Below are positions 1,827 to 17,122 of a DNA stretch of 22,688 bases, in pieces. Source of the stretch: a virus. Position 1 is the first letter of the stretch; every line of letters starts with the position of its first letter. A program made the translations under genes and the position numbers. Below the pieces are notes generated by a model. That model was not told where the DNA came from and made no database searches. It saw only the letters and a program-made list of their open reading frames with translations. The stretch is taken from IMG/VR virus record IMGVR_UViG_3300023223_000995, positions 1 through 22,688 of that record, one strand, 5' to 3'.

Positions 1827-2209
1827 TGGACAAAATACATCCGGTGGTGCTAGTATTTATATCCGGTATTTTCGGGGCACTTCTTACATATTTCTTTAAA
1901 ACTGTTTTTCAGACTAAATCTATTATCCAGATCATTCATAACTCAATAGGTGAGTCTATGAAAAAGGAATTTAAAACACATATTTTAATTCACCATAAAG
2001 ATGACCCGGATGAATTGGTCGATGATAAAATTGAAGCGTATTCAAGGGAAGTCGATTATAAAATTGAACAGCTTGAAAAACAAATTAAATCCGTTCTATC
2101 CCAGGGTACGGTTTCAAAAGAAATGCTTCACGGAATAGATATCACTATTGTTGGTATTATGGGAGATTTAAAAACACTGAAGGAAAAGATTAAAAATGGC
2201 AGCGGTTAG
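1826..2209 (+). CDS. Small single-pass membrane protein with coiled coil, unknown function
   Basis: A 127-residue protein. The ATG at 1826 overlaps the stop of the frameshifted chaperone (TAATG) and has AAGGA at 1815-1819; an upstream in-frame ATG at 1691 lies inside the chaperone extension and is rejected. Residues about 5-25 (PVVLVFISGIFGALLTYFF) form one hydrophobic helix. The rest is hydrophilic, with a charged helical stretch ('DYKIEQLEKQIKSVLS') that looks like a coiled coil, and a second helix near the end. The 3' end overlaps the tape measure start by 14 bases. The layout resembles spanin- or holin-like membrane proteins only superficially, and the place between chaperone and tape measure suggests a structural or assembly role. 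I do not recognise a family. Confidence 0.7.
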   Translation: MDKIHPVVLVFISGIFGALLTYFFKTVFQTKSIIQIIHNSIGESMKKEFKTHILIHHKDDPDELVDDKIEAYSREVDYKIEQLEKQIKSVLSQGTVSKEMLHGIDITIVGIMGDLKTLKEKIKNGSG

Positions 2210-3950
2210 GGAGTTAGTTACAAAGTTATCCTTCAGGGTTGATAGTGCCAAACTGCGTTCATTCGATCAGAAGATCGGGAGTATTAAAAATAATGTTCGG
2301 GGCCTTACTCAAAATATGCGGGGTTTGGCATCGAGCGTTCAAAGGGTTGGTGCTGGATTATCTGCTTTCGTAACATTACCCCTTACAGCCCTTGGTTTTG
2401 TTGCCTTAAAGACAACCGCCGATTTAGAGAAAGCGAAGATTGCCCTTGAAGTATTTCTGGGTTCAGAGGAAGCTGCACTTGCAAAGCAAAAGGAATTAAT
2501 TGAATTTGCAAAAGAAACTCCATTTCAGGTTTTAGGCATCCAGGAAACAGCCGGTCAGTTACTGGCTGCAGGTATTGAATCCGATAGGTTAATTACAACC
2601 ATGAATGCCCTGGGTAATGCCGCTAAAGGTAATCAGGAAGTATTTCAAAGGCTTGTATTAAACTTTTCCCAGGTTAAGACACAGGGTAAATTAACAGGCA
2701 GAGAACTCAGGGATTTTCTTGTTAATCAGGTTCCGCTGGTAAAGTTACTCGCAAAGGAAATAGGAACATCTGAATCCGCTATTAAAGATTTGGTGTCAAA
2801 GGGTGCTATCAGTTTTGATGTAATGGAAAAGGCTTTCTTCAATGCTTCTAAAGAGGGTGGTTTCTTTTTCGATTTGATGAAGAAACAATCAAAAACACTA
2901 TCGGGCCGGTTTTCAAATTTACAGGATACAGTTACACAGCTGCTGGATGAATTTGGTAAGGCTATTGATGAAACATTTAATTTGCGTGAAAATATCAATA
3001 AGCTGATTACATTCATTGATAAATTAAGGAATCGATTTACAAATCTGAATCCGAATGTTAAAAAATTAATTATTGTGTTTGCAACAATGCTTGCTCTGTT
3101 GGGGCCATTACTTCTGGTTCTAGGGACAATTGCAACTGCCATCCTAGCGTTAACTGCAGCGGCTTTTGTGCTTGATGTTGCATTGCTTCCTTTGATTATC
3201 ACAATTGGGCTTATCATTGCAGCCATTGCTGCAATCGGGTTTGCCATCTTCCTGGTTATAAATGATTTCAATACATGGCGGGATAATGGGGATTCTGTAA
3301 TTGGATTTCTAATTGGTAAGTTCATGCAATTCAAAGCCTTTGTCGGGGATATACTGAGATCCATTGGTGCATTTTTCGTCAATGCCTGGAACTTTGTTAT
3401 TAATGCAACCGATGAACAATGGGATGATTTAATAGATAGGATTATTGAAAAGGGGCTTACACTATTAACCAGGCTGAAGGAAACATTTATAAAAATCAAG
3501 GATGGAATTGTTGCGATATTTGTAGAGCTTAAAAATGATGTAATTGAAATATTCACCAGTATTATCCCAGAAGCATTTTCAAAAACACTTGGTAAATTAA
3601 AATCCTTAAAGGACAGAATCACCGGAAAGGTTGGGGCCGGCCTTGATATCGCCAAAAAACTGGGTGGTGGTCTTGCCAGGGGTGGTGCTGCCATCGCTAA
3701 ACAGGCAACTGATATAGGAATATTACCAAACATACCATTATTGGCTTCTGCAGCTGGTGGTCTTGGAAGGTCATCAACCAGTAATTCAAATCAAACAAGC
3801 ATAAGCCAGGATATTAAAATTGAAGTTCCACCTGGAACATCAGAACAGCAGGCGCAATTTATAGAAGATTCGGCAAAGGAATCATTTGGAAAAATGTTTA
3901 ATAATGAAATGACTAAAAATCTAATGGCAACCCCACAGGCTGAACAATGA
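2196..3950 (+). CDS. Tail tape measure protein
   Basis: A 584-residue protein that spans the tail lumen, sets tail length and is ejected ahead of DNA. Residues about 50-250 match the tape-measure N-terminal domain (TIGR02675 type): 'KTTADLEKAKIALEVFLGS', 'TAGQLLAAGIES', 'KLTGRELRDFLVNQVPLV', 'GAISFDVMEKAFF' and 'LSGRFSNLQDTVTQLLDEF'. A long hydrophobic stretch at about 291-356 contains several predicted membrane helices, as in many tape measures that insert in the inner membrane. After it come charged helices, a glycine/alanine-rich stretch near residue 490 and a serine/asparagine linker. At 584 residues the protein is short; by the usual rule of about 1.5 angstrom per residue it implies a tail near 90 nm (inference). 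It overlaps genes on both sides, ending ATGA into the baseplate operon. Confidence 0.92.
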   Translation: MAAVRELVTKLSFRVDSAKLRSFDQKIGSIKNNVRGLTQNMRGLASSVQRVGAGLSAFVTLPLTALGFVALKTTADLEKAKIALEVFLGSEEAALAKQKELIEFAKETPFQVLGIQETAGQLLAAGIESDRLITTMNALGNAAKGNQEVFQRLVLNFSQVKTQGKLTGRELRDFLVNQVPLVKLLAKEIGTSESAIKDLVSKGAISFDVMEKAFFNASKEGGFFFDLMKKQSKTLSGRFSNLQDTVTQLLDEFGKAIDETFNLRENINKLITFIDKLRNRFTNLNPNVKKLIIVFATMLALLGPLLLVLGTIATAILALTAAAFVLDVALLPLIITIGLIIAAIAAIGFAIFLVINDFNTWRDNGDSVIGFLIGKFMQFKAFVGDILRSIGAFFVNAWNFVINATDEQWDDLIDRIIEKGLTLLTRLKETFIKIKDGIVAIFVELKNDVIEIFTSIIPEAFSKTLGKLKSLKDRITGKVGAGLDIAKKLGGGLARGGAAIAKQATDIGILPNIPLLASAAGGLGRSSTSNSNQTSISQDIKIEVPPGTSEQQAQFIEDSAKESFGKMFNNEMTKNLMATPQAEQ

Positions 3951-4603: not shown

Positions 4604-4926
4604 TGTCTGTTGTAATCCCATTCTTTAATCAACTGTCTAATTTCAGGGAAGAAATCATTCTGGATAATATTTCCTTTCTTTTTGATTTCAATTGGAATGA
4701 AAGGGCAGAGCAATGGAGCATGGCCATATTGCAGCCCGATGAAACGCCGATTATGTATGGTATTAAACTTGTTCTGGGTTATTCATTATTCGATCAGTTT
4801 GAATATTTGGGCCTGCCGCCTGGGGAATTATTCTGTGTGGATACTACCGATTCAGAAATAGAAGTCAATAGAAATAATATTGGTGATACCGTTGAACTCG
4901 TATACATTCCAGAGGCTGAAGCATGA
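4603..4926 (+). CDS. Baseplate plug protein (Pam3 gp18-like)
   Basis: A 107-residue protein starting in a TAATG overlap with the Dit-like gene. The pattern 'IPFFNQLSNFREEIILDNI', 'FDFNWNERAEQWSMAIL', 'ETPIMYGIKLVLGYSLFDQF' and 'NIGDTVELVYIP' fits the small domain described for the baseplate plug of cyanophage Pam3, common between the Dit-like and hub genes in myophages with simple baseplates. It is probably a beta-rich subunit at the hub interior. Alternative names in annotations are DUF6983-like or 'baseplate hub assembly protein'. Length and neighbours both support the call. Confidence 0.75.
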   Translation: MSVVIPFFNQLSNFREEIILDNISFLFDFNWNERAEQWSMAILQPDETPIMYGIKLVLGYSLFDQFEYLGLPPGELFCVDTTDSEIEVNRNNIGDTVELVYIPEAEA

Positions 4927-5774
4927 CTTTATTTAATCGGGTTGCCTCTATTGAAATCGTTACTGAAACGAATTTTATATTAAGAATATCGGGCCTTAGA
5001 ATATCATTCACCGTTGATAAAACTGAAAACAAAGATCCCAATACTGCCAAACTGCAAGTATATAATTTGGCACAGGATACCAGAAACATTATTAAAGATG
5101 TGGGCCGAAATGTTACGCTATTTGCTGGATATGAAAATGAGAATGGTGAGGAGCTTCTTTTTACTGGGGATATCACTAATATTACTCATAAGATTAATAA
5201 GCCTGATGTTATCACAGAAATTGAAGCCAGTGATGGTAAAGAAGCTCTGGATAAAGCTAAAATCGTTATTTCGCAAAATGAAAAAACCAGCGGGTTAGGG
5301 ATACTTCAAAAGGTACTGGGTAACTTTGATATTGGTAACAATCTCAATCAGGTAATAGTCCCGAATAAGATATATCAATCCGGGTTTGCCTTTGCCGGTC
5401 TTGCAAAAGATGCCCTTCAAAAAGTAACCAAATTTTTAGAAATGTCCTGGTCAGTGCAGAACAATGAAATCAATCTGGTATCATTCGATGGCAACAATCA
5501 GACCGGTATTATATTACTTACTGCTGAATCCGGGCTGATTGGTTCCCCTGAACGGCTATCCGGTAAATCCCGCAAAGCAAAAAACAAATCGAAAACAGAT
5601 AAGCCAGGTTGGAAATTCACTACACTATTATTTCCATCGATAAATCCATTGGGCCGGATAGCAGTACAGAGTGTTGAAATTAAAGATGTCACAGAATTTG
5701 TTGTTTATACAATTTCCCATTCCGGGGATACCCACACAAAAGAATGGACTTCAACAATTGAGTCAAGGGAATAA
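4923..5774 (+). CDS. Baseplate hub protein (gpD/gp27-like)
   Basis: A 283-residue protein overlapping the plug gene by ATGA. The beginning ('LRISFTVDKTENKDPNTAKL', 'VYNLAQDTRNII', 'NVTLFAGYENENGEELLFTG') is the typical start of phage hub proteins that form the trimeric ring above the spike. The central part ('LAKDALQKVTKFLEMSWSVQ', 'EINLVSFDG') matches the second barrel seen in gpD/gp44-type hubs. A basic, serine/lysine-rich insertion lies near residue 220 (KSRKAKNKSKTDK). The C-terminus ('VVYTISHSGDTHTKEWTSTI') is the conserved closing strand. The spike gene follows with a TAATG overlap, as expected for a hub-spike pair. No lysozyme domain is present, so peptidoglycan hydrolysis, if needed, is encoded elsewhere. 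Confidence 0.8.
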   Translation: MTLFNRVASIEIVTETNFILRISGLRISFTVDKTENKDPNTAKLQVYNLAQDTRNIIKDVGRNVTLFAGYENENGEELLFTGDITNITHKINKPDVITEIEASDGKEALDKAKIVISQNEKTSGLGILQKVLGNFDIGNNLNQVIVPNKIYQSGFAFAGLAKDALQKVTKFLEMSWSVQNNEINLVSFDGNNQTGIILLTAESGLIGSPERLSGKSRKAKNKSKTDKPGWKFTTLLFPSINPLGRIAVQSVEIKDVTEFVVYTISHSGDTHTKEWTSTIESRE

Positions 5775-6411: not shown

Positions 6412-6732
6412 ATGGCTATGAACGGAACAGATATGGCAGATGAAGTTGTTGATGCTTTAGTTACTGCAGGTAAATATAATGGGCTTAATGCTTCACAAAT
6501 TGCTGCCTTAAAAGTCGATATGGCAGTTAGTTATACTGCAATGCTCAATTATATAATTGCCAATCTTGAAATCAACGGTGTTGAAATTGATACTGCTGCC
6601 CTGTTAAGTGCCCCCACAGCTTTAACACCAGTACCGAATGATGGTGGTGCAGTTGTATCCGCGCAAATGGTAGGAAATGCAGATGGTTCAACACTTTCAC
6701 AAAATAACGATGGAACGGGATTAATCGCATGA
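6412..6732 (+). CDS. Small baseplate-operon protein of unknown function
   Basis: A 106-residue protein, ATG two bases after the spike stop. The first part is helical ('GTDMADEVVDALVTAG', 'ASQIAALKVDMAVSYTAMLN') and the second half is glycine, asparagine and alanine rich with low complexity. Small proteins with the 'MNGTDMAD-VV-AL' style start are common between spike and gp25-like genes in Mu- and Pam3-like phages, but no role is known to me. It could be the spike-tip or a spike chaperone, by position only. Confidence 0.6.
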   Translation: MAMNGTDMADEVVDALVTAGKYNGLNASQIAALKVDMAVSYTAMLNYIIANLEINGVEIDTAALLSAPTALTPVPNDGGAVVSAQMVGNADGSTLSQNNDGTGLIA

Positions 6733-7097
6733 GTTTAGATATAGCACTAGATCCAGATACACATGATTTGTTAATCAGGGATAATGATTTACAGATTGTG
6801 AATGATGCGGATCAGCTGGAACAAAATTTAAGAATAAGATTGCAATTTTTTATCCGGGAATGGTTTTTAAATATAAACAATGGACTTCCTTTCTATTCTG
6901 ATATCCTGGTAAGGAATCCCAATGTTTCAAATATTGACAGCATTATAAAGGCACAGATAATTGATACAAATGGAGTTGAAGAAATACTGGCATTCATTTC
7001 AACATTTGATGCTGCTGAAAGAAGGTATTCAATTACCTTCAAGGTAAGATCTGAATTTGGGGAATCTGAATTACAGGTTTCATTATTTAATAATTAA
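6729..7097 (+). CDS. Baseplate wedge protein, gp25/gpW-like (sheath initiator)
   Basis: A 122-residue protein, ATGA overlap with the preceding gene. It shows the features of the Mu gp46 / T4 gp25 / P2 gpW group: 'DPDTHDLLIRDNDLQIVND', 'QLEQNLRIRLQFFIREWFLN' containing the conserved E-x-x-x-N-L-R-x-R-L and W/F-L core, 'GLPFYSDIL' and a C-terminal beta hairpin 'YSITFKVRSEFGESELQVSL'. These subunits link the wedge to the first sheath ring and start sheath polymerisation. The J-like gene follows, the universal order in contractile injection systems. Confidence 0.88.
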   Translation: MSLDIALDPDTHDLLIRDNDLQIVNDADQLEQNLRIRLQFFIREWFLNINNGLPFYSDILVRNPNVSNIDSIIKAQIIDTNGVEEILAFISTFDAAERRYSITFKVRSEFGESELQVSLFNN

Positions 7098-7106
7098 GGT
7101 ACTCTC

Positions 7107-8783
7107 ATGGCTTTTGGATTAACTGACGATGGATTTATAAAAAAGACCTTAACGGATATTCTTGCAAAACTTGATGCCGATGTAAAGGCTGTATTTGGGG
7201 CCGCGAATGTGGAGCCCGATTCTGTATTTGGGCAGATGAATGGAATAATCGCTGAAGTGGTTGGGGATTTATGGGACCTTGCTGAATTGACCTATGCTTC
7301 ACAGTATGCACTCAGCGCAAAGGGTGTTTCAATGGATGCCGTTGCGGAACTTAATAATCTGACCAGGCTTGGTGCAACCGCATCAACAGTAAATGCCATT
7401 CTTGAAGGGGATGATTTAACAACCATTCCCCTGGGTACTCAATTCAGGCAAACCGGTACCGATGAAATATTTGCTTCATCATCTGAAATACAGCTTAATT
7501 TGACCACATTATTGAAGGTGGTAATTTCGGTAAATGATTTCGCCACAACCCCCCACACAATTGACATTGTAGGGGATGGGGAAGCCGTATTTTCAAGTTC
7601 TGTCAGTTCCAGTGCCCTGGATGTCCTGAATGACTTTCAGACCCAAATAAACACTGCTGGTAAGCATAACGCCGTTGTGGATGTTTCAGCTGAAACCCTT
7701 ACCATAACAAATCTTGATTTATCTGATATTACAACTTTCGGTATCATAATTGATGCAACTCTTACAATCGATGAACAGTGGTCCCCTGTTTCACTTGCCG
7801 CTTTAAATACCGGTGCAATCGCCGTTCCTTCTAATTCCATCCAGATAATTGAAACTCCTGTTGTGGGCCTTAATGCTGTTGATAATTTGAGTGTTGGAAC
7901 CCAGGGCCGGGATGTGGAAACTGATGATGATTTCAGGCTTCGAAGAAAACAAAGCATCCGGGTGGTTGGGGCCGCTACAGTTCCCGCAATGGAAGCCAGG
8001 TTGGTTGAAGAAATAGTGGAAATAGTGTCTGCTACCGTAAAAGATAACCGGACTGATTTTACAGATGTTGAAGGCAGGCCCCCACATTCTTTTGAAGCCA
8101 TTATAACTTTTTCCCCTGATACCGCTGCAATCCGTCAAATTATCGCGGATAAGATATTTGAAATTAAGCCTGCAGGGATTCAAACATTCGGCACCATTAC
8201 TGAACAGGTATCAGATTCAACCGGGGATCTTCAAACTATTAATTACTCACAGCCCACAAATAAATTCATTCATATCAATGTTGAAATTACCCTGAATCCA
8301 GAGGAAGTTTTCCCTGTCAATGGCCTGGATGCAATTAAAACTGCTCTGGCTGATTTTGGTAATGATCTTAATGCAGGTGAGGATGCAATTATACAAAGGT
8401 TTTTTAATTCTATTTATTCTGTCTCTGGTGTTGAGAATATTGAACTATTTGAATTTGCAACAACCGTAAATCCTGGTGACACACCAACAGTCTTAGATAC
8501 TTCAACAGTAGATAGTAATCCATCAGCTGGTGAATTCGGTATGTCAGGCGCACAGTTAATAACTAATGGTGTTGTAACTGGAATGGTTGTAAAAAAGACA
8601 GGTGGTGTTCCTGCATCATCAGTAAAACAGGTATTATCTGAAACCAATTTCATATCAAAAGATGATGTATTTTTTATAAGTGATGTTTTACAGTTCGGTG
8701 GATTCGGTGATACAAATATAGGAATTGCTGCTAATGAGATTACTAGGTTTGATGAATTAAGGATTGCTGTGGTGATTGTATGA
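7107..8783 (+). CDS. Baseplate J-like wedge protein with C-terminal extension
   Basis: A 558-residue protein with ribosome site AAGGTA at 7096-7101. The N-terminal helical region ('SVFGQMNGIIAEVVGDLWDL'), the 'LNNLTRLGATASTVNAIL' segment, the 'IPLGTQF' strand, the central 'VDNLSVGTQGRDVETDDDFR' stretch with the conserved 'RLRRKQSI', and the late 'INVEITLNPEE' and 'GVENIELF' strands are all typical of baseplate J (Mu gp47, P2 gpJ, T4 gp6 core). It forms the wedge dimer that opens on contraction. After 'SVSGVENIELF' (about residue 448), where many J proteins end, another 105 residues follow, glycine/serine-rich with a short beta-like domain. Base composition becomes visibly more AT-rich there. 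The extension may dock the adhesin cassette encoded just downstream (inference). Confidence 0.9.
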   Translation: MAFGLTDDGFIKKTLTDILAKLDADVKAVFGAANVEPDSVFGQMNGIIAEVVGDLWDLAELTYASQYALSAKGVSMDAVAELNNLTRLGATASTVNAILEGDDLTTIPLGTQFRQTGTDEIFASSSEIQLNLTTLLKVVISVNDFATTPHTIDIVGDGEAVFSSSVSSSALDVLNDFQTQINTAGKHNAVVDVSAETLTITNLDLSDITTFGIIIDATLTIDEQWSPVSLAALNTGAIAVPSNSIQIIETPVVGLNAVDNLSVGTQGRDVETDDDFRLRRKQSIRVVGAATVPAMEARLVEEIVEIVSATVKDNRTDFTDVEGRPPHSFEAIITFSPDTAAIRQIIADKIFEIKPAGIQTFGTITEQVSDSTGDLQTINYSQPTNKFIHINVEITLNPEEVFPVNGLDAIKTALADFGNDLNAGEDAIIQRFFNSIYSVSGVENIELFEFATTVNPGDTPTVLDTSTVDSNPSAGEFGMSGAQLITNGVVTGMVVKKTGGVPASSVKQVLSETNFISKDDVFFISDVLQFGGFGDTNIGIAANEITRFDELRIAVVIV

Positions 8784-9088
8784 CACACAGAGAGAAGATA
8801 AAATATTACAGTAGAAAGCCTGTCGGTATAGCAAGCATTATTAGTTTACTGGGTGCTAGTGGTTTTGGTGGATATAAGGCTGCAAGGAATTTTGTTGTAG
8901 AACCTGTAGTAAACAAAGTGAATGATGTTATTGTAAATATGAAGGCTGGTGCAGTTAGAGAAAATATTATTATTGAACAGAATGACAGATTAATTGCGTA
9001 TGAAGAATTAAAACTAAAGTTAAATTTTAGACCAGATGATATTAAAGCTGCTAAAAATGAAATGATAGCAGATGAATTTTGGGACTAA
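8780..9088 (+). CDS. Small protein with weak hydrophobic helix, unknown function
   Basis: A 102-residue protein starting in the ATGA of the J gene. A basic start (THREKIKYYSRKP) precedes a glycine/alanine/isoleucine-rich stretch (about residues 16-40) that could be a membrane or amphipathic helix; the rest is charged and helical and ends DEFWD. Codon use is markedly A/T-rich compared with the J gene body. I do not recognise a family. It opens the putative adhesin cassette; a membrane role or a virion linker are both possible. Confidence 0.55.
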   Translation: MTHREKIKYYSRKPVGIASIISLLGASGFGGYKAARNFVVEPVVNKVNDVIVNMKAGAVRENIIIEQNDRLIAYEELKLKLNFRPDDIKAAKNEMIADEFWD

Positions 9089-9109
9089 TAATTATAGGAG
9101 TAATTAAAT

Positions 9110-9637
9110 ATGAGTTTACCACTTGGTAATAATCTTAATTTTCCAATATTTCCATTTCTTGCTGATCAAATGGATACCCCAAATACTGCTGATTGGGCAG
9201 TAAATGCTTTTGCATTATTAGATCCTGATTCAAATAATGATGGATTTAAGGTCAGGCTTTTTGATGATACATTAGAGGAAGGTATTGGTTTAGAATTAGA
9301 TACTCCGTTAAATGCTACTAATATTATTTTTGAATTTAAATCCAGAGCTGAAACCGGAGCAGCTTCTAATCTTGGTGTTAGACCAAAACTATATGCCAGA
9401 GAGGCTCCCAACAATTTAATTGTTGAATCATGGGATGCTGGCACATTACTTGATGCTCTTACTATGGGAACATCAAATGAATTTTTACAATATGATATAC
9501 AAACTATTACACTTGCATCATTAAATCTTGTAGCTGGTAGAAAAGCTCAATTTGAAATTACAAGACTTCCATCAGATGGGAGTGATACTCTTGTAGGTGA
9601 TTGGGCATTGTCAGTCGTAAAGGTGAGTTTTACATGA
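9110..9637 (+). CDS. Probable virion decoration or tail appendage protein, beta-rich, unknown family
   Basis: A 175-residue protein, ATG at 9110 with a TAGGAG ribosome site just upstream. The sequence is regular, acidic and beta-rich: 'DSNNDGFKVRLFDDTLEEGI', 'TNIIFEFKSRAETG', 'KLYAREAPN', 'QTITLASLNLVAGRKAQFEI', ending 'GDWALSVVKVSFT'. This has the look of a jelly-roll or beta-sandwich subunit, like accessory virion proteins encoded next to fibre genes in many phages. There is no clear catalytic motif. The stop overlaps the next start (ATGA at 9634), so the two are probably made together and may form one structure. Confidence 0.6.
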   Translation: MSLPLGNNLNFPIFPFLADQMDTPNTADWAVNAFALLDPDSNNDGFKVRLFDDTLEEGIGLELDTPLNATNIIFEFKSRAETGAASNLGVRPKLYAREAPNNLIVESWDAGTLLDALTMGTSNEFLQYDIQTITLASLNLVAGRKAQFEITRLPSDGSDTLVGDWALSVVKVSFT

Positions 9638-10302
9638 TTGAATTTGCAACTGGTAGTAGTGAATTTATTCGCAGTACAGCTGGGTTAGTCCCTGCTACTA
9701 CTGGATCATTAACATTCTGGATGTTTATAAATTCCATGGGTAGTAATGCAGATATATTTTCATCTGACACCACAGGTCATAGAGTAAGGCTTTTAAGTGA
9801 TGGAACATTACAATCAAGAATGTTAAGAAGATTCAATGATACCGCTGATTCAGTTACCCTGTTGAGTGCTGGTGTTAGATATCACATTGGTCTAACATGG
9901 GAAAACGGTGTGCCTTCTGCCGGAAATACTAGAAATAATATTTATATTGACGGTGTAATTGATCTTGCTAATGATGATGGTAATGATGATCTACCAAGTA
10001 CAAATCCGCTTACATTAGCATCACACACTGATGGCGGTTCTAATTTTGATGGGCTTCTGGAGGATATCAGATATTATAACAGAATTCTTACTCCAGGGGA
10101 ATTTTCTACAATTCACACAGCTAGTGCCATTGATAATATCATAAACGGCCTTGAGCATAGATTTATTATGAATGAAGGGCCATCTGGGACTGTTGTAGGT
10201 GCTTCAGCTGTGAAAGATTATGCGGGGAATCTTGTAATGACTACAGTAAATGGTACCCCCACTTTTGAAGGGACTCAATTAAAATTAAGGAGACACATCT
10301 AA
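9634..10302 (+). CDS. LamG-like (concanavalin A-like) lectin-fold protein, putative adhesin
   Basis: A 222-residue protein. The right start is ATG at 9634, in the ATGA overlap and with AGGTGAG six bases upstream; a TTG at 9601 in frame is inside the previous gene. The order of strands is typical of LamG/laminin-G-3 jelly rolls: 'GSLTFWMFINSMG', 'RVRLLSDGTLQSRM', 'GVRYHIGLTWENG', 'NNIYIDGVIDL', and 'FDGLLEDIRYYNRILTPGEF', the last being the signature end of the domain (about residues 20-165). A second part (about 166-222) may be a small tail domain. Such folds in tail proteins bind cell-surface glycans (family knowledge). The location between baseplate genes supports a receptor-binding role. 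Confidence 0.8.
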   Translation: MIEFATGSSEFIRSTAGLVPATTGSLTFWMFINSMGSNADIFSSDTTGHRVRLLSDGTLQSRMLRRFNDTADSVTLLSAGVRYHIGLTWENGVPSAGNTRNNIYIDGVIDLANDDGNDDLPSTNPLTLASHTDGGSNFDGLLEDIRYYNRILTPGEFSTIHTASAIDNIINGLEHRFIMNEGPSGTVVGASAVKDYAGNLVMTTVNGTPTFEGTQLKLRRHI

Positions 10303-10869
10303 ATGAGTAATGTAATTATTTTCGATCCAGATGATTCTAATGTTCCAGGGCGTGTTACATATTATTTATTAAGTGTTCATACCCCTAGTTATATCGATAA
10401 TTCAAATGCACTTATAAATCCAGATGTATCATCACTATCATTAGTACCACAAAAACACTGGAAAGAAAGCTCGGGTTCTGTTGTAGAGATGTCACAGGCT
10501 GAAAAAGATGCTATTGATATTCCTGATTTGGATACTCAAAAACAAACAAAATATAATGCTATTGATCAAAAGACTGGTGTCTTAATCAGTGGTGGTTTTG
10601 AATATGATTCAATAACTTTTTCAGCATCATTGAACGCTCAGACAAATTGGAGTGCAATAAAAAATAATGAATCTGAATTTACATTTCCCTTGGAGATATC
10701 AACGAAATTGAATTATAAATACAGTTTAGCCCAAGCTGATGTTTCTGATTTTTGGATAGCGGGGAAAGATTTTATAAAAGAGCATTTAGATTCAGGTCGG
10801 GGCTTAAAAGTAAGTGTCAATGATGCAACTACACAAACTGAATTGGATGCAGTTGTAGATGAACGATAA
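10303..10869 (+). CDS. DUF4376-like tail protein
   Basis: A 188-residue protein starting immediately after the stop of the LamG gene. The first 70 residues form a compact beta-rich part ('VIIFDPDDSNVPGRVTYYLL'). The second half ('KQTKYNAIDQKTGVLISGGF', 'YDSITFSASLNAQTNWSAIK', 'ISTKLNYKYSLAQADVSDFW') fits the DUF4376 pattern that often ends tail fibre or fibre-assembly proteins. It may be a fibre chaperone or a small fibre subunit for the neighbours. The family call is moderate; the function is inferred by context. Confidence 0.55.
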   Translation: MSNVIIFDPDDSNVPGRVTYYLLSVHTPSYIDNSNALINPDVSSLSLVPQKHWKESSGSVVEMSQAEKDAIDIPDLDTQKQTKYNAIDQKTGVLISGGFEYDSITFSASLNAQTNWSAIKNNESEFTFPLEISTKLNYKYSLAQADVSDFWIAGKDFIKEHLDSGRGLKVSVNDATTQTELDAVVDER

Positions 10870-10892
10870 TCTTTATATAAGGAAGAAATAAA

Positions 10893-12413
10893 ATGGAATC
10901 AGGTATAATAAGACGCGGCGCAGATTTAATACTTTGGGCAACTCTTCAAAATAAAATAACTGGGATAGGCGTTCCAAGTGGTGGCGGACTTGTTGTAACA
11001 GGTTCAATTGAAAGGGATGATGATATGTTTTGGGATTCTACATCCACCCCTTCACCGGCATTTGATCTTGGAGCAGAACCGGCACTTGATGCATTGGCAC
11101 ATGACAATAATGGGTTATGGTTTTTTGTATTAGTTGGAGGTGCCGAAACTAGTGAGCGTGATTATAGATTACATATTGTTGTAACCGGTAATCCGGCTGT
11201 AAATACTAATGCAACTTTTGGTAGTACTATCAATGCAATTCCAAATGGAACATCCTATGAAGGTGGAAAAATCTGGATTGATACGGTTAACGGAAACGCT
11301 GGTACTTCACCTTTTATAAATGGCATGGTTGGGAATCCTGTAAATAATATTTCAGATGCCTTTGATCTAGCTGCTGATCCAAGTGTAAATCTAGATAAAT
11401 TTAATGTTGGGCCTGGTTCATCAATTATATTATTGGAAAATTCAGATGGCAAAATATTTGTTGGTGAAAATTGGACTCTTGATTTGGGTGGGGAGTCTAT
11501 TGTCGGTATTAGCGTAAATGGTGCATTCGTGTCTGGTATTGCAGCTGGTGTTGGAGCGCGTCAGAATTTCGATAACTGTTCGATGCTAGCAACCACACAT
11601 ATTAAAGGAACCCATATTGCAAAAGGTTCGATGATCGTAGGTAAACAAACAGTGGGCGAAGCTGGTACATATAATGTAATCGATTGCCATTCTGGTATGG
11701 AAGCGTCAGGGCCAGGATGGGATTATGGAGTGGGCTTAGGGGATACTGAAGTTAACTTTCATAATTATAATGGTCGTATCGAAGTTGAAAATATGAATGA
11801 AACTGGTTCAGATATAATGCACCTTCAAGGTCGGGGGGAATTAATTATCAATGTGAATTCTGTTGGGGGCATAATAGATTACTCCGGTAATTTTAGACTA
11901 ACTGACAATGCAAGTGAGGCAGTGGCATTAAATGAGCTTGCAAATATTAGTTCATTACAAGGTGATGATTATGGCGCACTAACTTATGACAGGACAGCAC
12001 ATTCAAACCAGGCAATTGTTGATAAAGTTGAGACCAATGCAACTGGTATTGCATTAGTTCTTTCAACAGGTGGTCCCGGACCTTGGACATCTGATGCTGC
12101 TTTAGAAGTAACATTAAAAGATAATGCTGCTAATAGAATAGTTCTTGATAAGATATGGGATGCATTGAGAGCAAATCATGTTGTCAATGCATCATTCGGG
12201 GAATTTGTTCTTTCAAATGTAATCAGGTGGGATGGTTCAGCAACAATTGATGGAAAGAGTTTAAAATTATGGGCTGAAATAATGCTGGCATATACAACTG
12301 GCAGATTCAGGACTAATAAACCTAATCCCGGTGATATAGAATTCTATAAACAGAATAGTACAGCAGTACTTTTTACATTGCATATTGTTGCAGGTCAAAG
12401 GACAAGGAATTAA
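10893..12413 (+). CDS. Tail fibre / distal tail protein with beta-helix body
   Basis: A 506-residue protein with ribosome site AAGGAAG before ATG 10893. The N-terminal third ('MESGIIRRGADLILWATLQN', 'FDLGAEPALDALAH') is like the beta-sandwich that attaches such fibres to the baseplate. From about residue 128 comes 'GGKIWIDTVNGNAGTSPFIN' followed by 'GNPVNNISDAFDLA', a phrase recurrent in phage appendage proteins that begins a right-handed beta-helix; this then continues with short turns ('ENWTLDLGGESIVGISVNGA', 'FDNCSMLATTHIKGTHIAKG', 'GELIINVNSVGGIIDYSGNF'). The end ('LDKIWDALRANHV', 'ASFGEFV') resembles the 'VWDEPLSNH' helix seen at the end of related tail fibres. It is a probable receptor-binding protein; the host receptor is unknown. 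Confidence 0.72.
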   Translation: MESGIIRRGADLILWATLQNKITGIGVPSGGGLVVTGSIERDDDMFWDSTSTPSPAFDLGAEPALDALAHDNNGLWFFVLVGGAETSERDYRLHIVVTGNPAVNTNATFGSTINAIPNGTSYEGGKIWIDTVNGNAGTSPFINGMVGNPVNNISDAFDLAADPSVNLDKFNVGPGSSIILLENSDGKIFVGENWTLDLGGESIVGISVNGAFVSGIAAGVGARQNFDNCSMLATTHIKGTHIAKGSMIVGKQTVGEAGTYNVIDCHSGMEASGPGWDYGVGLGDTEVNFHNYNGRIEVENMNETGSDIMHLQGRGELIINVNSVGGIIDYSGNFRLTDNASEAVALNELANISSLQGDDYGALTYDRTAHSNQAIVDKVETNATGIALVLSTGGPGPWTSDAALEVTLKDNAANRIVLDKIWDALRANHVVNASFGEFVLSNVIRWDGSATIDGKSLKLWAEIMLAYTTGRFRTNKPNPGDIEFYKQNSTAVLFTLHIVAGQRTRN

Positions 12414-13307
12414 ATGGCAACAGTCCCCGTATTTTTATCCAAATGGAACTCTGGTAACAATCCAGCTGGAATAACTATTGATAGTAATGGAGATGTGTAT
12501 GTTATAGACGGCACTTTAAATGTAGTAAACAAATATGACTCTTTAGGTGTTTTTATACTTTCGTTTGGGAGTGGTACGCTAAGCAATTCCAGGGCAATAA
12601 CACACGACGGCTCTGATAATATTTATGTAACTAGTAGAATTGCAACTGGTCTGGTTTTTAAATTTGATTCTGTAGGGAATTTATTAACAAGTTGGGTTGT
12701 ACCAGATTTCGCCACCCCTAATGGAATTACATGGTCACCTTTTAATAATTTCATCTATGTAATACGCACAAATAACGGTTTCGGGAGAATATTTGTATAT
12801 GACTTGATAGGTAACCCCCAATTTGATTGGGGAGATAACGGAACTAATATATTCACGGGGAGCACATTTGATGTATTGGCCGATTCACAAGGGTTCATAT
12901 TTGCTACAGAGGCCGGAGAGAACATACATAAATTTAATCCTGTGGGTGGGCTGCCTATAGCGACCATAAATATCGGTGGTAACGCAAGAGGGTTAGCACT
13001 TGGTCAAAATGATGATATTTATGTTTGCCAATCTAGTGACGATAAAGTTATACAATATGATAATGATTTAAACTTTATATTAGAGTGGGGTAGTCTTGGC
13101 ACCAGTGACGGAGAATTTGATGCTACAAATTACATAGATAGAAATCTAATAACCGGTGACATTTATGTAGATGATGTATTTACTACCAGAGTGCAAAGGT
13201 TTGGTCAACCAATAACACCTATAGGCCCAACCGATCCACCAATACCCGACGGCTTTATTGAAACCATCACAACAAGTGGTCAAACAGATGGTGAAATATT
13301 ACTATGA
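12414..13307 (+). CDS. NHL-repeat six-bladed beta-propeller tail protein
   Basis: A 297-residue protein beginning at the base after the fibre stop. Six repeats of the NHL type are visible, each with a G/A-I-T/A-x-D-x-x-[GD]-x-[IV]-Y-V strand pair: about residues 16-50 (AGITIDSNGDVYVID), 59-95 (AITHDGSDNIYV), 102-140 (GITWSPFNNFIYVI), 146-182 (DVLADSQGFIFAT), 190-226 (GLALGQNDDIYVC) and 235-265 (RNLITGDIYVDD). NHL propellers bind proteins, RNA or glycans, and some are enzymes; no catalytic residues are evident here. A proline-rich linker (PIGPTDPPIPDGF) and a short tail follow. Its 3' end overlaps the next baseplate gene by ATGA, so it is expressed with the baseplate. There is no signal peptide, which fits a virion protein rather than a secreted one. 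Confidence 0.82.
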   Translation: MATVPVFLSKWNSGNNPAGITIDSNGDVYVIDGTLNVVNKYDSLGVFILSFGSGTLSNSRAITHDGSDNIYVTSRIATGLVFKFDSVGNLLTSWVVPDFATPNGITWSPFNNFIYVIRTNNGFGRIFVYDLIGNPQFDWGDNGTNIFTGSTFDVLADSQGFIFATEAGENIHKFNPVGGLPIATINIGGNARGLALGQNDDIYVCQSSDDKVIQYDNDLNFILEWGSLGTSDGEFDATNYIDRNLITGDIYVDDVFTTRVQRFGQPITPIGPTDPPIPDGFIETITTSGQTDGEILL

Positions 13308-13957
13308 GTTTTGATGAATCCCTACTTGGCACCTTTGGGTGGGCTAAATTTCCGGTTCAGGCATCTGGATTAATTTTAGATTATTGTGAACGCGCAAAGT
13401 CAAGACTGATAGAACAGTTTGAAACCAAACCAAACATCGGAAACTATCTCTGTGCATTGATTGAATCCCTTCAGGAGCTTGAATTTGTATTCGGGGATTT
13501 ATTAACACTGAGAACATTGGATGAATCAACAGGGGTGCAGCTGGATGGCCTGGGTGATATTGTCGGCATCGAAAGACAGGGCCTGGGTGATGATGGTTAC
13601 AGGACAATAATAAGATTTCAAATCGGAATTAACTTTTCAAACGGTGAGCCCGAAACATTAATTGCTCTGACACAATTTATAACAGAGGGAACATTCGTAA
13701 AATATACAGAAGCGTTTCCTGCGAGGGTTTCATTACTTACTGATGGCATTGCAATTAATCAAGCTACCGTTCCAATTATTGAGGAATCTGCACCAGCTGG
13801 TGTAAAGATTGAATTAACATCGACTATGGGATCACTTATTCCTTTTGCATTTGCACCGGACCCTGGTGATGTTGACCCCATACCACAAGGATTTTCAGAA
13901 CCAAACTTTGCACCTGATGCAGGGCTTGGTGGTGAATTCGCTGAAAAATTTAGTTAA
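13304..13957 (+). CDS. DUF2612 baseplate protein (gp48/gpI-like)
   Basis: A 217-residue protein starting in the ATGA overlap. The core fits DUF2612, the Mu gp48/P2 gpI-like wedge protein: 'IEQFETKPNIGNYLCALIES', 'ELEFVFGDLLTLRTLDESTG', 'GVQLDGLGDIVGIERQGLGD', 'DDGYRTIIRFQIGINFSNGE'. In this group the protein caps J and connects to the fibres. The C-terminal 40 residues are a proline/glycine/phenylalanine-rich tail ('PDPGDVDPIPQGFSEPNF'), possibly a contact for fibre subunits. In most phages of this kind the gene lies directly after J; here six genes intervene. Codon use returns to the style of the early tail genes. Confidence 0.85.
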   Translation: MSFDESLLGTFGWAKFPVQASGLILDYCERAKSRLIEQFETKPNIGNYLCALIESLQELEFVFGDLLTLRTLDESTGVQLDGLGDIVGIERQGLGDDGYRTIIRFQIGINFSNGEPETLIALTQFITEGTFVKYTEAFPARVSLLTDGIAINQATVPIIEESAPAGVKIELTSTMGSLIPFAFAPDPGDVDPIPQGFSEPNFAPDAGLGGEFAEKFS

Positions 13958-13971
13958 GGAGAATATTTAAA

Positions 13972-14928
13972 ATGGCAACCGAACCTGTAAAATTACCAGA
14001 ATGGGCATCAGCAAATCCTACTGATGGTGTGAGTGGACAAGCTGCAATCATAGAACCATCAGAAGCAAAAAAAGATTCTGGATTTTTAAGATTAGAAAGA
14101 TCACCCAGGCAAGATCATAACTGGTTGTTCAACTTAATATTTCAATGGTTTGAATGGTTAAAGCAGCAAGAAAATTTAAACACGCCACATCGTACCGGAG
14201 ATGGAAGTGACCATTCTGATGTTGCGTTAAACACTACCCATAGTGGAAGTGATGGTTCAGACCATTCTGATGTCGGCTTAAACACAACACATCGGGGAGT
14301 AGTATCAGGGAACCCGCATAATGTCGGCGCAACTGAAATATCAGATTTCGATTCTGAAGTTGATAGTAATGCCAGCGTTACAGCAAATACTAATCATAGA
14401 AATGATGATGGAAGTGACCATGCAGACGTTGCAACAAACACATCCCATTCTGGTGGGGATGGATCAGACCATGCTGATGTTGCTGCAAATACTTCTGCCG
14501 CTGCGTTAAACACCACCCATAGAACGAGTGACGGAAAAAACCATAGTGATGTTGTATTAAATAACACTCATCGAGGATTAACAACAGGAAACCCGCATAA
14601 TGTTGTAGCAGCTGACCTCACACTACCTGTTACCTTGGTAACTCAATTGACAGGGCAATCATTTTTATGGCCATCAAATATAGATGATAATTCATCTGTG
14701 TATTCATCTGATCTTGCTGTGGCTGCGGCTAAAGTTGGTGACATAGTGTTAGTAACACCTACAGATAGAGTTGTAGCGACTGATCAAACAAATCGTATTA
14801 GTTTTGAAGGGATCGTTGCCTCTGCAGGCAACATTAAAGTAAATGCCGTAAACCATCATAGTACATCTGTCAGTGATAACAGTATCGAGGCCCTTTCTTT
14901 CAATGTTACCATAATCAGCTTCACATAA
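13972..14928 (+). CDS. Tail fibre with histidine-rich tandem repeats
   Basis: A 318-residue protein with AAGGAG at 13956-13961. The N-terminal 70 residues ('LPEWASANPTDGV', 'DSGFLRLERSPRQDHNWLFN', 'FQWFEWLKQQENLN') form the usual attachment domain of phage fibres of this kind. Residues about 77-215 contain five DG[SK][DN]H[SA]DV units (near residues 77, 94, 146, 163, 187), most followed by N-T-[TS]-H, and two 'GNPHNV' motifs (113-118 and 206-211). The final 100 residues form a globular beta domain ('VAAAKVGDIVLVTPTDRVVA', 'RISFEGIVASAGNIKVNAVN') that would be the tip. Regular histidines in trimeric fibres can coordinate metal, as in T4 gp37 (established there, inferred here). It ends the late tail operon; a terminator follows. 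Confidence 0.8.
   Translation: MATEPVKLPEWASANPTDGVSGQAAIIEPSEAKKDSGFLRLERSPRQDHNWLFNLIFQWFEWLKQQENLNTPHRTGDGSDHSDVALNTTHSGSDGSDHSDVGLNTTHRGVVSGNPHNVGATEISDFDSEVDSNASVTANTNHRNDDGSDHADVATNTSHSGGDGSDHADVAANTSAAALNTTHRTSDGKNHSDVVLNNTHRGLTTGNPHNVVAADLTLPVTLVTQLTGQSFLWPSNIDDNSSVYSSDLAVAAAKVGDIVLVTPTDRVVATDQTNRISFEGIVASAGNIKVNAVNHHSTSVSDNSIEALSFNVTIISFT
14200..14616 (+). repeat. Tandem histidine-repeat region inside the fibre gene
   Basis: Five copies of a unit encoding DG[SK][DN]H[SA]DV occur, with 17-residue spacing inside two pairs (77/94 and 146/163) and 24 residues to the last. The whole block appears duplicated once, since both halves end in THRG-x5-GNPHNV (first end near residue 118, second near 211). 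At DNA level the copies are similar but not identical, so the duplication is not recent. Confidence 0.8.
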
Positions 14929-15673: not shown

Positions 15674-15882
15674 TGCCAAATTGCAGCAGCTGCCATTCAT
15701 CAATCGAATTAATAAAACGTGGGGGGAGTTGGATTACATTTGATCTTGGTAAAAATAGAATGCATAGTTGTCGCACAAGCCAAAGGGAAAATAAATACAG
15801 ATTAGCTCTGATCAGATACAATGATAGAAAATATGGAAAAGGAAACTCGCAAAACAATCACATCAATCACAACAGAGGATAA
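15673..15882 (+). CDS. Small CxxC zinc-ribbon-like protein
   Basis: A 69-residue protein starting in TGATG. It has C-x-x-C near the start (PNCSSCHSSIELIKRGGSW) followed by a beta turn 'SWITFDLGKNRMHSC', giving C-x2-C-x(n)-H-x-C, the layout of small phage zinc-ribbon proteins that usually end in 'HFATC'. The final third is basic and asparagine/histidine-rich with low complexity. A second protein with the same core plan is encoded at 19168-19350. Function is unknown; a DNA-binding role or a partner of a host protein is possible. Confidence 0.55.
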   Translation: MPNCSSCHSSIELIKRGGSWITFDLGKNRMHSCRTSQRENKYRLALIRYNDRKYGKGNSQNNHINHNRG

Positions 15883-15883
15883 A

Positions 15884-17122
15884 ATGACTGAAGAAAACAT
15901 GATTAAAAAACCATACGAAATTGAACCCCCCCGATTAATTAAAATGCTTATATATGGGCCACCGGGCCTGGGTAAAAGCACCGTTGCACTATCTGCCCCT
16001 TCACCATTATTATTTGATTTTGATGCTGGTATCCACCGGGTACTCGCTAAACATTGGAAGGATACGGTACAGGTCCGGTCCTGGATGGATGTGATTGCTG
16101 TACTCGATGCCAAGCATGGCGATTTGTCAGATCATAAAACATTCATTTTAGATACCGTGAGTAAGCTGCTCGATTTCATGACCGCCTATATTGTAAAGAA
16201 CAATTTAAAAGGTGATGTTAAAAAGGATGGTAATCTCACGTTAAACGGATACGGAACCCGGAAAAGTATGTTTCAACAATTTGTAGCCAGGGTAGGAATG
16301 ATGGGCAAACATCTGATATTTCTTGCACAGGAAGAAGAAAGGGAAGATGAAATTCGGCCAAAGGCAGGCGGTTCATCAGGCCCCGATTTACTTGAACAGC
16401 TGGACCTGGTTGGGCACATGGAAGCCAAAGGTAATGGCCGGGTAATTTCCTTTGAGCCCAATGAAAAATATTACGGTAAAAATTCATGTGGATTGCCTGC
16501 TGAAATGGAACTTCCCGATCCAGAGAAAACAGCAAATAATTTCATGGTAACTGTTTTTGATAAGTATAATGAAAACGCAAATGCCAGTATTGAGATTGCC
16601 AAAGAATATAATATCCTGATGGAAACCGTTGGCAATGATATTGATGAAATCCATGATGCCGATGAAGCGAATGATTTCGTTGCAAAGATAGATGGATACA
16701 CTCACATCTGGGATTCAAAACTTCAGGCATCGAAGGCAATGAAAAAGAAAGCCGCTGCTCTTAATTTAGTGCTTGATGTTGAGAACCGGGTATACAAAAA
16801 CCCTACCAATGATCAGGTTGAGCGCGATAAGGGTAAGGGTACAAAGGCTCAAAATAAAAAAACCACACCAAAGAATAAAAAGACCTCAACAAAAAAAGCC
16901 TCAACAAAAAAGACAGCCTCAAATCCTGGTAAGAAGCCACAGGAAAAAAGTAAACAGGATGAATTCGATGAACTCTGTAAAGCCGCAAAGAAGAACCCCA
17001 ACAAAGATACCATGGGTGCCGTTGATGTATTCTGGAATGCAAATGAAGAAATCCGCAATGAAGCAAACAGTGATATATTAATTGACCTGCAACATGATAT
17101 TCACGATAAGGATGGTAAATAA
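15884..17122 (+). CDS. Sak4-like RecA-fold ATPase (AAA_24), phage recombination protein
   Basis: A 412-residue protein; I chose ATG 15884 because AGAGGA lies five bases upstream and the preceding gene ends at 15882 (an ATG at 15821 would overlap that gene by 62 bases). The ATPase core shows Walker A GPPGLGKS (residues 25-32), Walker B 'TFILDT' (D90), a 'FDFDAG' strand, 'HLIFLAQEEE' and a 'GRVISFEPNEKYYGKNSCGL' region with R/K residues. This fits AAA_24/Sak4 ssDNA-binding nucleotidases used in phage single-strand annealing or strand exchange. The family core is about 230 residues; here helical sequence follows, then a lysine/threonine-rich low-complexity linker (about 305-355), then an acidic helical end. 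No SSB gene is obvious beside it, although Sak4 usually works with one. Confidence 0.82.
   Translation: MTEENMIKKPYEIEPPRLIKMLIYGPPGLGKSTVALSAPSPLLFDFDAGIHRVLAKHWKDTVQVRSWMDVIAVLDAKHGDLSDHKTFILDTVSKLLDFMTAYIVKNNLKGDVKKDGNLTLNGYGTRKSMFQQFVARVGMMGKHLIFLAQEEEREDEIRPKAGGSSGPDLLEQLDLVGHMEAKGNGRVISFEPNEKYYGKNSCGLPAEMELPDPEKTANNFMVTVFDKYNENANASIEIAKEYNILMETVGNDIDEIHDADEANDFVAKIDGYTHIWDSKLQASKAMKKKAAALNLVLDVENRVYKNPTNDQVERDKGKGTKAQNKKTTPKNKKTSTKKASTKKTASNPGKKPQEKSKQDEFDELCKAAKKNPNKDTMGAVDVFWNANEEIRNEANSDILIDLQHDIHDKDGK

Follow-up and report, generated by a model that had tools for sequence, protein, structure and literature searches.

The window, by which we mean the whole stretch of 22,688 nt analysed here, is an uncultivated virus record and, judging from the genes present, a fragment. 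Pfam and PHROG scans delineate a contractile-tail operon in which the genes from the sheath through gpI and a fibre-like gene all lie on the + strand. The operon and the NHL gene on which this analysis centers comprise the following features:

2-700, + strand: tail sheath, partial (Pfam/PHROG scan)
after the sheath, + strand: PHROG 280 virion structural protein, the probable tube
between the PHROG 280 protein and the tape measure, + strand: tail assembly chaperone
2196-3950, + strand: tape measure (Pfam/PHROG scan)
between the tape measure and the hub, + strand: 218-aa protein of the PHROG tail fibre/endolysin type
4923-5774, + strand: baseplate hub (Pfam/PHROG scan)
6729-7097, + strand: wedge (Pfam/PHROG scan)
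7107-8783, + strand: baseplate J / wedge subunit (PF04865, E 2e-8; phrog_6, E 1.3e-47)
8780-13307, + strand: block of six open reading frames (ORFs) inserted between J and gpI, the NHL gene being the last
9601-10302, + strand: LamG/ConA-like lectin-fold protein in the J-gpI block (PF13385, E 3.5e-13)
10303-10869, + strand: DUF4376 protein in the J-gpI block, a weak match (PF14301, 21.5 bits, cut-off 25)
10893-12413, + strand: 506-aa putative fibre protein (residues 440-506 resemble the C-terminal end of a protein from another J locus, L144)
12414-13307, + strand: predicted NHL six-bladed propeller protein, 297 aa (ORF call, Pfam, profile, AlphaFold2, VIA)
12426-13208, + strand: predicted propeller domain, residues about 5-265, 24 strands (AlphaFold2; VIA Z 36.7 to 6xg7)
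13209-13304, + strand: C-terminal proline-rich tail, residues 266-297 (low AlphaFold2 confidence)
13304-13957, + strand: DUF2612 / gpI-like baseplate gene (PF11041, E 3.2e-7; PHROG baseplate families)
13972-14928, + strand: tail-fibre-like protein behind gpI, where such a gene usually lies (phmmer to ORFs of other J loci, best E 6.4e-14)

The boundaries of the NHL ORF are exact. Its ATG at 12414 abuts the stop codon (12411-12413) of the 506-aa ORF, and its own stop overlaps the start of the gpI gene at 13304 as ATGA, which bears out the overlap with a baseplate gene described in the first-pass annotation. That annotation also placed the gene behind a fibre gene; the adjacency is as described, while the 506-aa ORF has no convincing Pfam or PHROG family, and searches like those made for the NHL protein found no relatives of it. 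We infer that this ORF encodes a fibre. Given the position of the NHL gene in the tail operon and the tight joins on both of its sides, the NHL protein is very probably translated together with the tail. Several further observations concern the surrounding genes. The LamG/ConA-like ORF, as called, has a TTG start and overlaps the preceding ORF, and the fibre-like protein behind gpI contains repeated DGSDHSDV..NTTH units. GC3 in the six-ORF insert (0.14-0.27) is for the most part lower than in the tail core (mostly 0.30-0.36), and this may reflect separate acquisition. A gene for a Sak4-like ssDNA annealing protein (15821-17122; phrog_124, E 2.2e-49) lies shortly past the tail genes.

The 297-aa protein matches the Pfam NHL family (PF01436), scoring 23.0 bits where the cut-off is 20, and the Pfam scan gave no other domain above cut-off. 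A phmmer search against solved structures aligned the whole protein to the NHL domain of Drosophila Thin (E 1.6e-13, with E 9e-5 for the best single stretch), followed by TRIM proteins and the designed Pizza propellers. The protein has no membrane or signal segment, with a 19-residue hydropathy maximum of 0.99, and its proline-rich end begins after about residue 266, where the confidence of the structural model is low; both points agree with the earlier description. The propeller carries a net charge of -16, the pI of the whole protein is about 4.05, and the only histidines are His64 and His172. No close relative of the whole protein was found in phages by tblastn, nor in viral contigs and genomes by peptide patterns, a method limited to close relatives. 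A motif that the NHL protein and gpI share in their C-terminal tails (PIPDGF/PIPQGF) was considered as a docking signal and rejected: 291 of 5000 shuffles of the gpI tail scored as high, and the tails of 95 gpI-like ORFs elsewhere yielded three P.GF and two IP.G matches, none of which resembles the motif.

The fold assignment rests on a repeat profile and on structure prediction. We derived a six-blade profile from 17 NHL segments of other viral contigs, leaving the protein of the window out; its columns are not wholly independent of that protein, as the underlying alignment was made with it present, which amounts to a small leak. This profile matches residues 15-266 with 98.9 bits, compared with 11.9 bits for the best of 2000 shuffled sequences and 5.9 bits for the reversed sequence. 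AlphaFold2 modelling with an alignment of viral NHL sequences gave a pLDDT of 88.5 and a pTM of 0.85, and the model contains 24 strands arranged as six blades of four, with the N-terminal strand (residues 6-12) supplying the 24th strand, which the last blade needs. From residue 271 onwards the mean confidence of 10-residue blocks is 65 or lower. Prediction from the single sequence, without an alignment, produced a poor model (pLDDT 47). The structure prediction and Foldseek comparison proposed in the first-pass annotation returned a six-bladed propeller, with Thin (E 9e-18) and the NHL domains of LIN-41/TRIM71 and Brat as the best matches; VIA-align superimposes the model on Thin (6xg7) with a Z score of 36.7 and an rmsd of 1.9 over 256 residues. 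Among the BFVD matches from Foldseek is an 'NHL protein' of a Myoviridae assembly. On the evidence of these models, the 297-aa protein is a six-bladed NHL propeller. The earlier reading of six blades is upheld by the profile and by AlphaFold2; in the Pfam scan of the sequence, just a single blade (residues 15-32) passes the NHL cut-off on its own.

In order to place the insert among related tail operons, we used a J motif scan of viral contigs, which returned at least 120 stretches, with frames taken from stop to stop. Among the matches listed, the J profile matched 120 of 120 and the gpI profile 95 of 120; at 86 of these 95 listed loci J and gpI lie within 14 nt of each other or overlap, and the gap exceeds 100 nt in nine, the largest being 3306 nt. 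Four related records (L002, L003, L005 and L006) also have gpI directly after J, by ORFs or annotation. In the window, the distance from the last base of J to the start of gpI is 4521 nt (about 4.5 kb), and in the phage from which the window derives the NHL gene is an addition. Fibre-type genes are found in some of the larger gaps elsewhere. At one such locus (L144), an ORF adjoining gpI has a C-terminal domain in common with the 506-aa protein of the window (20/67 identical, E 4e-8); it directly precedes gpI, in a position as in the window, but without an NHL gene. At a second (L092), the insert contains a DUF4376 gene along with a fibre-like ORF. Judged from these sequences, genes for tail appendages therefore occasionally enter at the J-gpI gap. 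At a further locus (L182), a 481-aa protein encoded in the J-gpI gap (1140-2585, - strand) has propeller-like repeats by eye; its Pfam matches are weak, FN3 included, and it is possibly another propeller adhesin, although we do not count it among the evidence.

The first-pass annotation had raised the pairing of NHL genes with J/DUF2612 genes in other phages. As such it was not recovered: an NHL ORF is present at none of the 120 listed J loci within the fetched flanks, some of which are short or one-sided, and the Pfam NHL threshold is reached in none of 50 whole J records drawn from at least 120. The six-blade profile did find propellers behind gpI. It gave three matches among the 120 listed J records, one of which was rejected, leaving propellers in two of 120, and no match in five more related records (L002-L006). 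In the first (L203), a 381-aa propeller gene at 948-2093 lies directly downstream of gpI and belongs to the DUF5128 (6-bladed) family, with 28.1 bits against a cut-off of 22.9. In the second (L202), a gene for a 418-aa propeller-like protein lies downstream of gpI, past a fibre gene and two small genes; its Pfam matches, PQQ_2 and NHL, are both sub-threshold. The rejected candidate, a 743-aa protein (L155) with 16.1 bits to the profile, lacks any Pfam match and looks like a fibre in which repeats are dispersed.

A separate NHL motif scan of viral contigs returned 71 stretches, 50 loci of which were taken further. An NHL domain is present in 46 of these 50 records, a figure that is no measure of prevalence because the records were chosen by the NHL motif and cover 50 of the 71 loci. 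Baseplate_J was found in none of the 50, many of which are fragments. The loci with scanned neighbours were picked by hand, so that the counts that follow are not rates. In four unrelated viral contigs an NHL gene follows a tail gene: the tape measure gene in two (L075 and L026, a tail gene coming next in the latter), a minor tail gene in another (L069) and a tail fibre gene in the fourth (L035). Scanning the neighbours in L065 yielded an HNH endonuclease and a match of the tail/Ig type, and no function emerged for those scanned in L037, L039 and L040. In L013 the NHL gene adjoins a DNA methyltransferase gene and in L061 it lies near a helicase gene; NHL genes of viral contigs are therefore not always tail genes. 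Nevertheless, propeller genes recur behind tail genes in viral contigs other than the window. Some of the contigs hold NHL proteins of other architectures. The protein encoded at 2333-3658 of L075, with the tape measure gene directly upstream, has a polyproline linker joining the NHL propeller to an unassigned N-terminal domain; an ORF of L011 (2-2566, - strand) runs from an NHL array into a region resembling phage thermonucleases (query residues about 628-757), constituting an NHL-nuclease fusion; and two records classed as viral (G038 and G049, behind L022 and L073) contain 3552-aa open frames with many NHL repeats.

We place the probability at about 0.6 that the NHL protein is a stand-alone propeller adhesin from an inserted fibre cassette, borne on the tail and gripping a ligand on the host surface. 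The fold, the operon position, the J-gpI insertion, the recurrence of propellers and the precedents of NrS-2/NrS-3, phi11 and PhiKZ support this reading; against it stand the absence of any close relative in our searches, the lack of a stem of the phi11 type, the settings of the NHL genes in L013 and L061, and the count of zero among the 120 listed J loci. A cassette of adhesion-type genes (LamG, DUF4376, the putative fibre and NHL) would have entered the J-gpI gap, which is empty in most relatives. The propeller would be made along with the tail and would most likely sit on the baseplate exterior or at the tip of the fibre encoded just upstream, with an exposed face of the rigid ring binding a glycan or an outer-membrane protein of the host surface, and the flexible proline-rich C-terminal tail may act as a tether to the fibre or baseplate; alternatively, the neighbouring fibre may hold the ring on the tail. 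We infer the presence of the protein in the virion, its attachment, its ligand and its binding function; receptor binding by the propeller is plausible. The further suggestion that the ring mimics a host protein found no support. More tentatively, the window may encode a two-part adhesin that would work in the manner of T-even gp37/gp38 but be built on the NHL ring, with a separate stemless NHL receptor-binding head clipped by its proline-rich tail to the neighbouring fibre, the whole forming a swappable J-gpI cassette.

A structural or assembly role in the baseplate without receptor function, as a cap, spacer or fibre-assembly factor, would fit a gene that lies between baseplate genes with overlapping codons, and among the BFVD matches of the model are proteins annotated as a virion structural protein (Noxifer) and, in an uncultured phage, as a baseplate wedge subunit. 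The NHL protein nevertheless seems dispensable for such baseplates, since no NHL ORF was seen in the 120 listed J-locus flanks, and its gene lies in a variable insert among other adhesion-type genes; we consider this role unlikely. Next in order, and likewise improbable, is a virion-associated enzyme acting on a host surface polymer or small molecule, after the manner of endosialidases, SMP-30 lactonases or PAL-type lyases. Enzyme propellers do match the model in VIA-align, namely PAL (3fvz, Z 29.2), an SMP-30-type protein (2p4o, Z 27.9) and phytases, although all score below the TRIM-NHL domains; the best structural matches are binding domains. The Pfam SGL family matches residues 94-131 weakly, its 23.5 bits falling short of the 26.3 required, and none of the other enzyme families reaches its threshold. 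Peptidyl-hydroxyglycine amidating lyase (PAL) has three zinc-binding histidines, for which the two of the NHL protein are too few. Virginiamycin B lyase has a catalytic His/Glu/His arrangement near its C-terminus; the last histidine of the NHL protein is at position 172, Vgb_lyase is not among its listed Pfam matches, and the Foldseek match of the model to this lyase fold is weaker than those to NHL domains.

We regard as still more doubtful a late-expressed cargo (moron) gene whose product acts in the host cell, for instance as an interaction scaffold, rather than in the virion. Propellers commonly serve as such scaffolds, and the methyltransferase and helicase settings of two phage NHL genes described above would suit this explanation, but the gene of the window lies inside a baseplate cluster with tight translational joins, and phage NHL or propeller genes are tail-linked in L026, L035, L069, L075 and L203. 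RNA binding in the manner of TRIM-NHL proteins is highly improbable: TRIM-NHL domains are the nearest folds among solved structures, and several were solved with RNA, but the propeller is acidic, Pfam finds none of the TRIM-NHL companions (RING/B-box/coiled-coil or filamin), and the similarity is one of shared fold.

That phage tails carry propellers is already known, and what distinguishes the protein described here is its stand-alone, stemless form together with its insertion between J and gpI. Sequence divergence makes the receptor-binding proteins of phages difficult to spot. Should NHL-type rings recur as tail adhesins, they would be among the few adhesins detectable by a repeat profile, so that phage genomes could feasibly be screened for NHL genes located behind tail genes. 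A second testable point is the entry of adhesion genes at the J-gpI gap. The general picture of host recognition by phages is left unchanged.

Comparison with solved cellular NHL domains, those of Thin (6xg7) and TRIM71/LIN-41 (7qrx), reveals the same fold as that predicted for the NHL protein, at about 20% identity, but these domains are parts of multidomain TRIM proteins of cells, whose ligands are RNA or proteins. The closest phage case from the related J loci, that of L203, shares the tail type, the order of J then gpI, a propeller adjoining gpI and a match to the six-blade profile; it differs in having an extra N-terminal region, in the placement of the gene after gpI instead of before it, and in its DUF5128 rather than NHL assignment. 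The premise behind the first-pass annotation, that NHL propellers would be alien to phage tails, is not supported in view of both the NHL genes beside tail genes in viral contigs and the tail fibre proteins of the Nitratiruptor phages NrS-2 and NrS-3 (NRS2_61 and NRS3_61), which contain an NHL domain according to the excerpted text of their description (PMC9723563). These fibres are the only NHL phage tail protein that we recognised among the results of our searches of the open PMC library. As in the window, the gene is a tail gene, here two places past the tape measure, and the authors count six NHL repeats in the fibre, the NrS-3 protein lacking a part that corresponds to three of them (PMC9723563, excerpted text). 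The differences are that the fibre is a 763-aa protein with other regions, the propeller is not a gene of its own and the phage is a siphovirus, and that our own Pfam scan assigns the repeats to SBBP and not to NHL.

Propellers of other types are known from phage tail proteins. As far as the available sections of PMC4901313 go, the receptor-binding protein Gp45 of phi11 has a five-bladed propeller and gp131C of PhiKZ, at the baseplate periphery, has seven blades, with PRD1 P2 and endosialidases also mentioned beside the phi11 propeller. Like these two, the propeller of the window is encoded within a tail/baseplate cluster, and the ring of Gp45 is similarly closed by an N-terminal strand; both are baseplate-periphery propellers thought to bind the host (PMC4901313, in those sections). 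Their five and seven blades are not of the NHL type, and Gp45 is a large trimer in which the propeller forms a single domain alongside a stem and tower. Beta-propeller lectins are also mentioned in the fibres of contractile injection systems, in the portion of that report available (PMC12923769). Unlike Gp45, the NHL protein has no stem, attachment or trimerisation domain, and beyond the predicted propeller it has just a tail some 32 residues long; for such a stemless protein, a separate fibre partner is possible.
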